A stretch of DNA of 64,000 bases from Acetobacteraceae bacterium (GTDB lineage: Bacteria > Pseudomonadota > Alphaproteobacteria > Acetobacterales > Acetobacteraceae): the NCBI GenBank assembly GCA_025354865.1, contig JANXMB010000190.1, forward strand, positions 1-64,000. The letters run 5' to 3'. The notes beneath the pieces are model-generated. The model saw only the letters and a program-made list of their open reading frames with translations. It did not search any database and was not told the origin of the DNA. This document shows positions 15,740-18,333 of the stretch, piece after piece; positions within the stretch are counted from its first letter, which is position 1, and every line of letters begins with the position of its first letter. The position numbers were made by a program, and so were the translations under genes.

Positions 15740-16849
15740 TCAGTACACCACCACGCTGCGGATGGATTCGCCGCGGCGCATGAGGTCGAAGCCTTCGTTG
15801 ATCTGCTCAAACGGCAGGACATGGGTGATCAGGCTGTCGATGTCGATCTTCTTGTCCATGTACCAATCGACGATGCGGGGCACATCGGTGCGACCGCGAG
15901 CGCCGCCGAATGCGGTGCCCATCCAGGTCCGCCCGGTGACCAACTGGAACGGCCGGGTTGAGATTTCCTGCCCGGCGCCGGCCACGCCAATGATGACGGA
16001 CTTGCCCCAGCCGCGATGGGCGCATTCCAACGCTTGGCGCATGACCGTGGTATTGCCGATGCATTCGAAGCTGTAATCGGCGCCGCCCTTGGTCAGATCG
16101 ACGAGATAGGGCACCAGATCGCCCTCGACCTCGGCCGGGTTGACGAAATGGGTCATGCCGAATTTTTCCGCCATGGCTTTGCGCCCGGGATTGAGGTCCA
16201 CCCCGACGATCGTCTCGGCGCCGACCATGCGCAGCCCCTGCACGACGTTCAGCCCAATGCCGCCGAGGCCGAAGACAACGCAGCGCGACCCCGCTTCGAC
16301 TTTTGCGGTGTTGATCACCGCGCCGAGGCCGGTGGTGACGCCGCAGCCGATGTAGCAAACCTTCTCGAACGGCGCGTCTTCGCGAATTTTCGCCAGCGCG
16401 ATTTCCGGCAACACGGTGAAATTGGAGAACGTCGAGGTGCCCATATAGTGGTACACGGTGTCCTTGCCCGAGGAGAACCGGCTGGTCCCGTCCGGCATGA
16501 CCCCCCTGCCCTGGGTCGCCCGAATGGCAACGCAGAGATTGGTCCGCCGGCTCAGGCAGTATTCGCACTGACGGCATTCCGGCGTGTACAGCGGTATGAC
16601 GTGATCGCCTTTTTTGAGCGACGTCACATTCTTACCGACATCGACGACCACCCCGGCCCCTTCGTGCCCCAGCACCGAGGGAAAGAGCCCTTCGGGATCG
16701 CCGCCGGAGAGGGTGAATTCGTCGGTATGGCAGATCCCGGTGGCTTTGATTTCGACCAGAACCTCGCCTTCGCGCGGGCCATCGAGGTCGATGGTTTCGA
16801 GGCTCAGGAGCTTACCGGCCCCTCGGGCAACGGCGGCGCGTGTTTTCAT
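15740..16849 (-). CDS. frmA: S-(hydroxymethyl)glutathione dehydrogenase / class III alcohol dehydrogenase
   Basis: Oxidises S-hydroxymethylglutathione, formed from formaldehyde and glutathione, and also reduces S-nitrosoglutathione; NAD-dependent, cytoplasmic. It has 369 aa. Catalytic zinc ligands are Cys40 (GICHTD), His62-Glu63 (LGHEGAG) and Cys169 (YIGCGVTTG). Structural zinc ligands are Cys92, 95, 98 and 106. The cofactor site reads VFGLGGIGLNVVQG. GGARGRTDVPRIVDWYM is typical of class III enzymes. First gene of a three-gene operon. The intergenic region upstream holds the two sRNA genes. No glutathione-dependent formaldehyde lyase or FrmB is adjacent. Confidence 0.95.
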   Translation of the reverse strand: MKTRAAVARGAGKLLSLETIDLDGPREGEVLVEIKATGICHTDEFTLSGGDPEGLFPSVLGHEGAGVVVDVGKNVTSLKKGDHVIPLYTPECRQCEYCLSRRTNLCVAIRATQGRGVMPDGTSRFSSGKDTVYHYMGTSTFSNFTVLPEIALAKIREDAPFEKVCYIGCGVTTGLGAVINTAKVEAGSRCVVFGLGGIGLNVVQGLRMVGAETIVGVDLNPGRKAMAEKFGMTHFVNPAEVEGDLVPYLVDLTKGGADYSFECIGNTTVMRQALECAHRGWGKSVIIGVAGAGQEISTRPFQLVTGRTWMGTAFGGARGRTDVPRIVDWYMDKKIDIDSLITHVLPFEQINEGFDLMRRGESIRSVVVY

Positions 16850-16926
16850 GGAGGGGTCTCCGGCTTGCTGTTTCGGGCCGGAATGTGCGGGCAGTCGCGT
16901 TTGGGATCAAGCAGTCGCCGGCGGAC

Positions 16927-16960
16927 AAAAAAAGTGGCGGCGGCCCGAAGGCCAACCGCC
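16927..16960 (-). terminator. Intrinsic terminator of sRNA copy 2
   Basis: Read on the minus strand: GGCGGTTGGCC-TTCG-GGCCGCCGCC, then CA and seven T. It is a strong GC stem with a stabilising UUCG loop and a U tract. It ends the sRNA and lies about 78 bp upstream of the frmA start, which insulates frmA from read-through. Confidence 0.85.
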
Positions 16961-17012
16961 AAGTTTAGGGAGGAAACGTCCAAGAAAGCAGCGTGCCTAA
17001 GCAGCGCTGCTA
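16927..17012 (-). ncRNA. Predicted small RNA, copy 2, with anti-Shine-Dalgarno loop
   Basis: Predicted transcript of about 86 nt between the promoter at 17019-17047 and the T run at 16927-16933. Three stem-loops can be drawn. First, GCAGCG pairs with CGCTGC around CTGCTTAGGCA. Second, GTTT pairs with AAAC presenting the loop CCTCCCT (16963-16977), complementary to ribosome-binding sites. Third, a GC-rich terminator hairpin has a TTCG tetraloop. The design resembles alphaproteobacterial Hfq-type sRNAs with CCUCC loops; I do not assign an Rfam family. It is a near copy of the RNA at 17102-17187. Confidence 0.72.
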
Positions 17013-17018
17013 GAACGA

Positions 17019-17047
17019 TACTTAGTCCGTTGATCGTAGGTATGCAA
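17019..17047 (-). promoter_or_regulatory. Predicted promoter of sRNA copy 2
   Basis: On the minus strand, TTGCAT (17042-17047), 17 bp, TAAGTA (17019-17024). The -35 block sits inside a 16-bp segment, GCTTGCATACCTACGA, conserved almost exactly in the promoter of copy 1. Confidence 0.65.
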
Positions 17048-17101
17048 GCGAAATGTTGCACCGCACCAAAAATATTTTTGCAATATGCAAGGACTATAGG
17101 C

Positions 17102-17135
17102 AAAAAAAATGGCGGCGGCCCGAGGGCCAACCGCC
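17102..17135 (-). terminator. Intrinsic terminator of sRNA copy 1
   Basis: On the minus strand: GGCGGTTGGCC-CTCG-GGCCGCCGCC followed by A and eight T. It matches the terminator of copy 2 except in the loop. Confidence 0.85.
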
Positions 17136-17187
17136 AAGTTTAGGGAGGAAACGTCCAAGAAAGCAGCGCGCCTAAGCAGCGCCGCCG
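17102..17187 (-). ncRNA. Predicted small RNA, copy 1, with anti-Shine-Dalgarno loop
   Basis: About 86 nt, ending in the run of eight T (17102-17109 on the minus strand). The first stem-loop is GCGGCG/CGCTGC; compared with copy 2 one A-U pair has become G-U, so pairing is kept. The GTTT-CCTCCCT-AAAC hairpin is identical to copy 2 (17138-17152). The terminator loop is CTCG instead of TTCG with unchanged stems. The open frame that crosses this region on the plus strand has no ribosome-binding site and is better explained by RNA conservation. Confidence 0.72.
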
Positions 17188-17193
17188 AGAGGA

Positions 17194-17222
17194 AATTTAG
17201 TGCACCAATCATAGGTATGCAA
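17194..17222 (-). promoter_or_regulatory. Predicted promoter of sRNA copy 1
   Basis: On the minus strand, TTGCAT (17217-17222), 17 bp, TAAATT (17194-17199). The same spacing and the same GCTTGCATACCTA context occur in copy 2. Further upstream both copies share a GGTGC/GTGCAAC-rich stretch that could be a regulator site. Confidence 0.68.
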
Positions 17223-17244
17223 GCGATATTGTGCGTTGCACCAT

Positions 17245-18333
17245 TTATTTTTCTGCAACCGCCCCTTGTGCCATCGCAACACATTTCCGCATGACCGAAG
17301 GCAGCGCAGCCGAAGCGAGGTCGTCGATCGGAAGCCAAAGCCCCGCGCCCTGGGGCGCTGGAATCCCCGCGCCCTGGGGCGCTGGAATCCCCGCAGCGAA
17401 AACGTCGATATACAGTTCGAAATGGGTGAAGCCATGCCGGATCTGCCCGGCCCGACGCCAATTGGCGAGCGCGGGCGCATGATCCATCGACTCCGCATCG
17501 GTCCATTGTTCCGCTCGCCAGGCCGTCCCCGGCAACTCCATCATCCCGCCAAGCAGCCCCTTCGAGGGGCGTTGGCGCAGCAGCACACGCCCGACCGGAT
17601 CGGTCAGCCAAAAATGAACGCCATACCGCACCGGCCGCAGCTTTTTGCGCGCTTTCGTCGGCAGGCGCGCCGCGATCCCCGCGCGTCGCCCGGCGCACGC
17701 GTCCATCCACGGACAAACGCCGCACGCCGGAGAGGTCGGCGTACACACCGTCGCCCCCAAATCGAACAACGCCTGCGCAAAGTCGCTCGGTCGTGCCCGC
17801 GCATGCGGATCGCTGCCCAGCGCGTCCGCCCCAGCCCGCAACGCCGGTTTCGCCGCCGGCAATGCGGTCTCGATCGCGAACAAGCGGGCCGTCACCCGCT
17901 CCACATTGCCATCGACGGGCACCGTCGGCAGGCCGAACGCGATCGCACCGATCGCCGAGGCCGTATAAACCCCGATCCCCGGCAGCGCCCGCAAACCATC
18001 GAGATCGCGCGGAAATCCGCCTTGCGCCACAACCGCTTGCGCACAGGCATGCAGATTGCGCGCCCGCGCGTAGTATCCGAGCCCGGCCCAGGACGATAAA
18101 ACCGAGTCCAATTGGGCCTCGGCGAGGGCTTCGACCGTGGGAAAGCGACTTACGAAACGTTCATAGTAGGGTATGACAGCGGTGACGGTGGTCTGCTGTA
18201 ACATGATCTCGCTGAGCCAAACGCGATACGGATCCATCGTCAGACCCGGGTCCGCGCGCCATGGCATGCGACGACGATGGCGGTCGTACCAGCGCAACAG
18301 CGAATCGGCGGACGGAATGGCAATCGGGGACAC
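17245..18333 (-). CDS. mutY: A/G-specific adenine glycosylase
   Basis: Removes adenine mispaired with 8-oxoguanine; cytoplasmic DNA repair. It has 362 aa. Catalytic Glu42 lies in SEIMLQQT and Asp141 in VPVDGNVERV. The helix-hairpin-helix reads LPGIGVYTASAIGAIAFG. The 4Fe-4S ligands are C197, C204, C207 and C213 (C-x6-C-x2-C-x5-C). The C-terminal NUDIX-like 8-oxoG recognition domain contains GLLGGMMELPGTAW. An odd GIPAPQGA sequence repeated twice (17341-17388) interrupts this domain. Divergent from the dciA-like gene, with only 10 bp between starts. mutM at 36 kb belongs to the same GO repair system. Confidence 0.95.
   Translation of the reverse strand: MSPIAIPSADSLLRWYDRHRRRMPWRADPGLTMDPYRVWLSEIMLQQTTVTAVIPYYERFVSRFPTVEALAEAQLDSVLSSWAGLGYYARARNLHACAQAVVAQGGFPRDLDGLRALPGIGVYTASAIGAIAFGLPTVPVDGNVERVTARLFAIETALPAAKPALRAGADALGSDPHARARPSDFAQALFDLGATVCTPTSPACGVCPWMDACAGRRAGIAARLPTKARKKLRPVRYGVHFWLTDPVGRVLLRQRPSKGLLGGMMELPGTAWRAEQWTDAESMDHAPALANWRRAGQIRHGFTHFELYIDVFAAGIPAPQGAGIPAPQGAGLWLPIDDLASAALPSVMRKCVAMAQGAVAEK
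17341..17388. repeat. Tandem 24-bp duplication inside mutY
   Basis: The 24-bp unit CCCCGCGCCCTGGGGCGCTG plus GAAT occurs twice in a row (17341-17364, 17365-17388), followed by a partial third CCCCGC. It is in frame and adds GIPAPQGA repeats to the C-terminal domain of MutY, so it does not break the gene. It looks like slippage. Confidence 0.85.

Follow-up and report, generated by a model that had tools for sequence, protein, structure and literature searches.

Among the described alpha-r8 small RNAs (sRNAs), MmgR of Sinorhizobium meliloti and SisA of Caulobacter crescentus are the closest to the pair considered here, and in the literature examined the family is characterised in these two organisms only, with different reported control. 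In S. meliloti, PhaR (AniA), the protein that senses the stored bioplastic PHB, is reported to repress the phasin genes and mmgR and to be titrated by PHB; it binds the mmgR promoter in EMSA, at a site for which position 13 from the start is listed and which is said to lie between -35 and -10 (PMC12542648). Depletion of PhaR reportedly leads to more MmgR, which lowers phasin proteins (PMC12542648, PMC8401924), and deletion of the mmgR core raises PhaP1 and PhaP2 protein, their mRNA being unaffected (PMC8401924). For C. crescentus, PMC12559287 reports that eight of ten tested reporters were clearly lowered by SisA and that the siblings have an anti-Shine-Dalgarno (anti-SD) 10-mer in common; the same source, citing Lagares 2016, mentions the occurrence of alpha-r8 RNAs in adjacent copies.

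The family, its anti-SD action, the adjacent copies and the PhaR control of mmgR are already known. New, as far as our literature search shows, are the members described below and a wide association, drawn from sequence, between a PhaR site and alpha-r8 RNAs. No paper joining Acetobacteraceae, small RNA and PhaR was found in this search, and no class-wide survey of PhaR and alpha-r8 was recognised; Lagares 2016 and Ceizel Borella 2018 lay outside its scope, and the wider link is not claimed to be unpublished.

Two tandem alpha-r8 genes and their predicted structure

The window is the whole analysed stretch of 64,000 bases. In it, the gap between the gene of a MutY-type adenine glycosylase (17245-18333; HhH-GPD and NUDIX_4 domains in Pfam) upstream and that of a frmA-type zinc alcohol dehydrogenase (15740-16849; ADH_N and ADH_zinc_N) downstream carries two tandem sRNA units at 16927-17222, as the original prediction, made from the sequence, had read; all these features lie on the minus strand. 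The repeated unit had been put at about 86 nt, and proved to be longer: the homologous unit, promoter included, measures about 165 bases, with the cores 175 apart. The mutY-type gene carries near its 3' end (17394-17347, minus strand) an exact in-frame 24-base tandem duplication (GIPAPQGA twice).

The promoter of copy 1 (17194-17222) consists of the -35 box TTGCAT (17222-17217), a 17-nt spacer and the -10 box TAAATT (17199-17194), and that of copy 2 (17019-17047) of TTGCAT (17047-17042), a 17-nt spacer and TAAGTA (17024-17019), in agreement with the predicted pattern TTGCAT-N17-TAA(A/G)T(T/A). A scan of 16500-17500 with the sigma-70 consensus reported no promoter, picking up neither of the two, and their reading as promoters is based on their position and on relatives, where the position of the copy-1 promoter is kept, in some cases with TATAAA or TATATA. 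The transcripts are placed at 17102-17187 (copy 1, the 3' end being the T run) and 16927-17012 (copy 2), both with estimated 5' ends. Each comprises a 5' stem-loop (17162-17186, from folds and from covariation in 24 units, and 16987-17011, from folds), the anti-SD stretch GTTTCCTCCCTAAAC (17138-17152 and 16963-16977), identical in both copies as had been expected, and a terminator hairpin (17110-17136 and 16935-16961). Both terminators, also anticipated, were located by the terminator scan (17136-17113 and 16961-16938) and in the folds, and the one of copy 1 is additionally marked by covarying pairs.

The units had been likened to alphaproteobacterial trans-acting sRNAs, and a covariance search with both copies had been proposed. 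This search places them in RF00519 (suhB/MmgR, alpha-r8), a family that the original prediction had not named, with 47.2 bits for copy 2 (16996-16920) and 47.1 bits for copy 1 (17171-17096), both above the curated gathering cut-off of 41 bits. The two units are sibling alpha-r8 (MmgR-type) sRNA genes, further members of a known family.

The estimated 86-nt transcripts fold with z-scores of -3.30 (copy 1; 1 of 200 shuffles equally good) and -4.42 (copy 2; none of 200), and stretches starting 10-15 bases before the estimated starts yield -3.68 and -4.18, respectively, beating all 200 shuffles. The fold of the estimated transcripts consists of the 5' hairpin, a weak hairpin of three pairs, the open stretch CUCCCUAAACU and the terminator. 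The weak hairpin, GGA(CGUU)UCC, occupies the first UCC of the anti-SD core and leaves CUCCCUAAACU unpaired; it stands instead of the GTTT/AAAC stem that had been supposed to close the anti-SD loop and that is absent from the folds. Two strong and one weak stem-loop are thus predicted per estimated transcript, as stated for MmgR (PMC7143759), while the weak one is missing in folds of the longer stretches and the Rfam consensus shows two hairpins.

Within the transcripts, differences between the copies spare the structure, as had been claimed. Two G-U pairs of the 5' stem are replaced by A-U. A G-to-A substitution gives a U-A pair in place of C-G, with the bulge shifted by one base; the remaining differences fall in the TTCG/CTCG loop or outside the stems. 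In an alignment of 39 units, chosen by their anti-SD core, this core is invariant in all 39. Five of the 11 predicted pairs are changed on both sides, all of them in the terminator, and three invariant pairs form the weak middle hairpin. Stem length varies between the units, and the RNAalifold consensus of this mixed alignment did not recover the 5' stem, because its register and length differ between subgroups.

The 5' stem was therefore counted in a hand-picked subset of 24 units of one architecture, where 92.7% of the cells pair, compared with 29-55% in slid versions and a mean of 91.1% in shuffled ones. Both sides are altered in four of the eight pairs, against a mean of 0.9 pairs in shuffles, none of 500 of which reaches four; each of the four rests on one cell, with relatedness between the units uncorrected. 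Seven further pair types were counted, a number reached by 38 of 500 shuffles. The counted register is that of the commonest relatives, and one of the eight pairs (columns 10-21) is unformed in 12 of the 24 rows, including those of the window copies. The comparative alignment that had been suggested as a check thus gives covariation in the terminator and the 5' stem, the latter being absent from the consensus of the mixed alignment.

Five RF00519 matches were found in the genome carrying the window, three of them over the cut-off. Weak matches are distrusted because the control genome of Thermus composti also gives one below the cut-off, and the two weak ones here (C136 and C190), without the GTTTCCTCCCT core, were excluded from the counts. 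The locus L108 of this genome (G000:C190, minus strand, offset about 2974) holds a degenerate alpha-r8-like unit with CTTGGACTCCTCCCCAAACTTGGCGGTGCC and a terminator, below the cut-off, which is possibly a decaying copy. A match is present in 45 of the 59 relatives, with one over the cut-off in 43; the highest copy number is 12 matches in G005, of which, among those listed, eight are over the cut-off. Tandem pairs or triples are present in several relatives, and those with a tandem pattern that were found by name are three Acetobacteraceae and three Rhodopila MAG records; ten arrays were read including the window, and the fetched stretch L042, which held one scorable copy, is not among the ten. 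Another terminator-bearing unit, with GGACGTTTCCTCCCTCTAT(A/T)AACT and a different 5' part, was seen in G007, G005 and G024, three members of the genus, at L070 (about 3107, minus strand), L095 (about 3057, plus strand) and L102 (about 2975, plus strand); it appears to be either a sibling that has diverged or an anti-SD sRNA of its own.

Predicted PhaR operators and their distribution

Upstream of each copy, 9 nt before the -35 box, there is a dyad that fully matches the PhaR consensus WNWDDNYGCRNYGCRNHHWNW published for S. meliloti (PMC12542648). The predicted operator of copy 1 is AAATGGTGCAACGCACAATAT (17226-17246, minus strand; core TGCAACGCA, 17240-17232) and that of copy 2 is TTTTGGTGCGGTGCAACATTT (17051-17071, minus strand; core TGCGGTGCA, 17065-17057). 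Both were missed by the original prediction, whose coordinates contain the units and, starting at the first -35 box, omit the copy-1 operator. The tandem arrangement had been taken to suggest dosage control or differential induction; the equal distance of the operators in the two copies argues for co-regulation here. No further full match to WNWDDNYGCRNYGCRNHHWNW exists in the window, where 0.34 are expected per shuffle and at least two occur in 6 of 100 shuffles. The number of full matches alone is modest evidence, and the strong part is their position: YGCRNYGCR lies exactly 9 nt before TTGCAT in all three over-cut-off copies of this genome, and the composite YGCRNYGCR-N9-TTGCAT has five matches in its 4.76 Mb, three of which are these sRNAs, while the other two have no AT-rich arms and lie in regions traversed by long open frames.

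The same genome encodes one PhaR (PF07879 match), a PHB synthase (PhaC), Hfq and three phasins (L117, L118 and L119), all three phasin genes having full PhaR consensus sites upstream. At L118 there are two such sites, 83 and 141 bases before a start with a good ribosome binding site (the start is uncertain), and at L119 the site ends 13 bases ahead of the start. No full consensus site is present at the phaR locus of this genome.

In the genus and near family the core is found between -130 and -45 in 65 of 76 units, in 64 of these at -100 to -86, and the full consensus in 42 of 76. Random 85-nt windows of the same loci, promoters included, contain the core in 11.2% and the full consensus in 0.9% of cases, and shuffled upstream stretches in 2.2% and 0.03%. 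Further Acetobacteraceae have the core in 18 of 18 units (order-level loci L126-L153, 18 of 28 loci yielding a unit). All these sets consist of best-scoring listed matches, with only units having the exact core TCCTCCCTAAACTT counted; from 125 TCCTCCCTAAACTT places, 29 duplicates, one with a short upstream stretch and one lacking a T run were removed, and no unit came from 16 of the 81 genus sources, including the over-cut-off L096-L098 and L101.

Among the 11 units without the core in the scanned stretch, L076 and L080 have it nearer the start, beyond the scan, and L104 and L110 are different-looking units. The latter two (about 3048 and 3082, minus strand; in G014 and G033) contain CGTGTGACTGGCGTTTCCTCCCTAAACTTGGCCCG, have no PhaR core upstream and are a second architecture of the alpha-r8 family. 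The ten tandem arrays have the core in 19 of 21 copies. In the tandem pairs L038 and L039 the upstream copy has no recognisable PhaR core and the downstream copy keeps it, and these pairs are candidates for differential control.

In other families of the class the motif is present within 130 bases upstream in 27 of 32 readable units (33 best-scoring loci). A second set of 52 loci from PhaR genomes has it in 37 of 51 units, with the full consensus in 13 of 51 (two loci had no readable core); some of the class-level loci are closely related. In random 130-nt windows of the class loci the motif occurs in 17.1% and the full consensus in 0 of 8484. The position of the motif at this level is variable; in many cases it falls within the -35/-10 pair or downstream of it. 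The motif is absent from 5 of 32 units in the first set and 14 of 51 in the second. Of the 19 class loci that lack the PhaR core, nine carry another dyad, TTCGCANNTGCR, mostly similarly placed (L021, L172, L198, L202, L205, L208, L212, L216 and L234), and two have near-misses; this dyad is perhaps the site of another regulator. Moreover, the C. crescentus genome matches the PhaR profile (as a control in the PF07879 search), and PMC12559287 reports no common promoter motif upstream of sisA-D, which speaks against universality of the PhaR link.

Seven class genomes have a strong alpha-r8 match and no PhaR found; nine units were read from them, covering part of their copies. The operator is present in none of the six units from six of these genomes (one unit read each, two genomes belonging to one genus) and in all three units of the seventh, G383. 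A PHB synthase was found in G383 and in none of the other six; completeness is 91% for G383 and 86-100% for the others, and phaR may be missing from the G383 assembly. The contrast of 64/83 operator-bearing units in the two class sets against 0/6 gives p = 0.0003 in the Fisher test, uncorrected for kinship, and base composition may contribute to it, the GC content of the six operator-less loci being 0.30-0.59 and the median of the second PhaR-genome set 0.61.

The regulator and the sRNA also occur together. RF00519 matches occur in 75 of the 150 genomes examined from the order, over the cut-off in 74 of them, and PhaR (PF07879) is found in exactly the same 74, so that the lists of genomes with PhaR and with any match differ by G193 only, which has a weak match (E 7.5e-4). 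Twenty listed genomes of the order with neither PhaR nor alpha-r8 are of 1.7-3.4 Mb. This co-occurrence may reflect few losses, with genome size and lifestyle as confounding factors. Among 289 genomes of the class, a match of any strength is present in 137 with PhaR and 22 without it, while 31 of the 168 PhaR genomes have no match and 99 genomes have neither. For the 125 genomes with strong matches, classed by E-value among the matches listed (the over-cut-off tally being 126), the numbers are 118 with PhaR and 7 without, with 50 PhaR genomes having no strong match and 114 genomes having neither.

We consider it reasonably likely that the link between PhaR and alpha-r8 is an ancestral circuit of Alphaproteobacteria rather than something peculiar to rhizobia, and that in it stored PHB would set the level of a family of anti-SD sRNAs. 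The link would track the loss of PhaR, in that a lineage losing PHB may retain the sRNA while the operator decays, and would have been amplified in a Rhodopila-like genus of Acetobacteraceae to as many as 12 matches in one genome, frequently arranged in tandem and most under the same operator.

Proposed mechanism and alternative readings

The two units, each with its own promoter, predicted operator and terminator, most plausibly act as PhaR-controlled trans-acting alpha-r8 sRNAs that, upon accumulation of PHB, block ribosome binding sites; we hold this reading with good confidence. In the scheme that we infer for PhaR binding, the direction of control, Hfq binding, targets and dosage, the repressor PhaR would occupy the dyad when PHB is lacking and keep the promoter low. 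PHB granules would titrate PhaR, and the phasin and sRNA genes would be released together. The sRNAs, with Hfq, would then expose CUCCCU and pair with the Shine-Dalgarno regions of selected mRNAs, lowering translation, and two copies under the same operator would provide a higher dose. The cell thus probably makes translation-blocking RNAs according to its stored carbon. Since the S. meliloti mmgR site lies between -35 and -10 and the one here upstream of -35, the sign of control could differ.

Phasin mRNA would, mainly by analogy, be a likely target class, in which case the sRNAs would restrain granule coating through an incoherent feed-forward loop. Target prediction for the anti-SD loop, also proposed originally, was weak for the phasins. 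Against a background of 45 roughly called gene starts of the window (median -9.0, best -15.2, with no accessibility term), the start region of phasin L117 pairs strongly (-13.4), through a run of G located 32-37 bases ahead of the start, and ranks third among the up to 45 starts of the window; L118, with -7.9 to -9.5 depending on which start is assumed, is about the median, and L119 is poor (-5.7).

That one of the three phasins pairs well leaves room for another set of targets, namely uptake and catabolic genes, as for Caulobacter SisA, which is reported to repress a large regulon (PMC12559287). The sRNAs, still under PhaR, would then serve as a feast-famine switch; this tentative but quite possible reading overlaps the preferred one and differs in the targets only, and the rise of PhaP1 and PhaP2 protein on loss of MmgR in S. 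meliloti (PMC8401924) argues against it.

A different regulator acting on the alpha-r8 genes, for example an NtrC-type protein or some repressor, is improbable. The dyad would in this case belong to that regulator and the output would follow nitrogen or another signal, in line with the reported dependence of S. meliloti mmgR on NtrC and the nitrogen source (PMC8401924). However, the dyad agrees with the published PhaR consensus, AT arms included, is common to the phasin genes of the same genome and is absent in all six units read from genomes in which neither PhaR nor PhaC was detected.

Much less probable still is that the units are a cis-acting leader with an attenuator for frmA instead of free sRNAs. 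The frmA-type gene does start 78 bases past the second T run on the same strand, and the neighbourhood is kept in some relatives: among 80 fetched loci, the complete mutY-sRNA-frmA arrangement is present in L045, with two sRNA copies, and in L085 and L087, with one each. However, a frmA match is found at only 5 of the 80 loci and a mutY match at 6, there are two complete promoter-terminator units, and the S. meliloti and C. crescentus members are reported to be free Hfq-bound sRNAs (PMC7143759, PMC12559287).

The reading of the overlapping open frames that cross the region (94, 249 and 375 aa) as short coding genes, these being the conserved entity, is hardly tenable, given that the two frames scanned (249 and 375 aa) have no Pfam match, that the 5' stem covaries and pairs far better than its slid versions, and that the stems differ in length between units.

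With PhaR-controlled sRNAs as the preferred reading, the shared operator would give many members of the class one predicted input and makes their role testable, namely that stored carbon sets which mRNAs are translated. The same signal with more dose would offer a reason for the coexistence of near-identical copies, and the siblings without the operator are marked as exceptions to be examined for other inputs.

Comparison with described systems

MmgR of S. meliloti resembles the window units in the covariance-model match, the anti-SD core, the terminator and the PhaR-type dyad at the promoter. It differs in being a single copy, in having the PhaR site at 13 from the start instead of 9 nt upstream of the -35 box, and in its transcript of about 77 nt, compared with 86 nt from the estimated start here. 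SisA-D of C. crescentus, which have the sponge CrfA, are likewise several siblings in one genome, and their anti-SD core is of the same type; unlike the three over-cut-off copies here with one promoter and operator layout, they are four scattered copies with no common promoter motif reported.

AbcR1 and AbcR2 (alpha-r15) of rhizobia are also tandem anti-SD sRNAs, Hfq-bound according to PMC7143759 and with partial homology to RF00519. The same source gives them 114-120 nt and two anti-SD motifs, neither of which applies to the window units, with an estimated 86 nt, one motif and an RF00519 score above the cut-off.

Finally, the PhaR/AniA regulon of S. meliloti has the same operator consensus at the phaP1 and phaP2 promoters. 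The operator centre here, which lies some 49 bases ahead of the estimated start, resembles the position of 47 listed for these promoters rather than that of 13 at mmgR, the reference point of the table lying outside the part of the source consulted. Unlike in this phasin regulon, the predicted output at the present locus is a tandem pair of non-coding RNAs.
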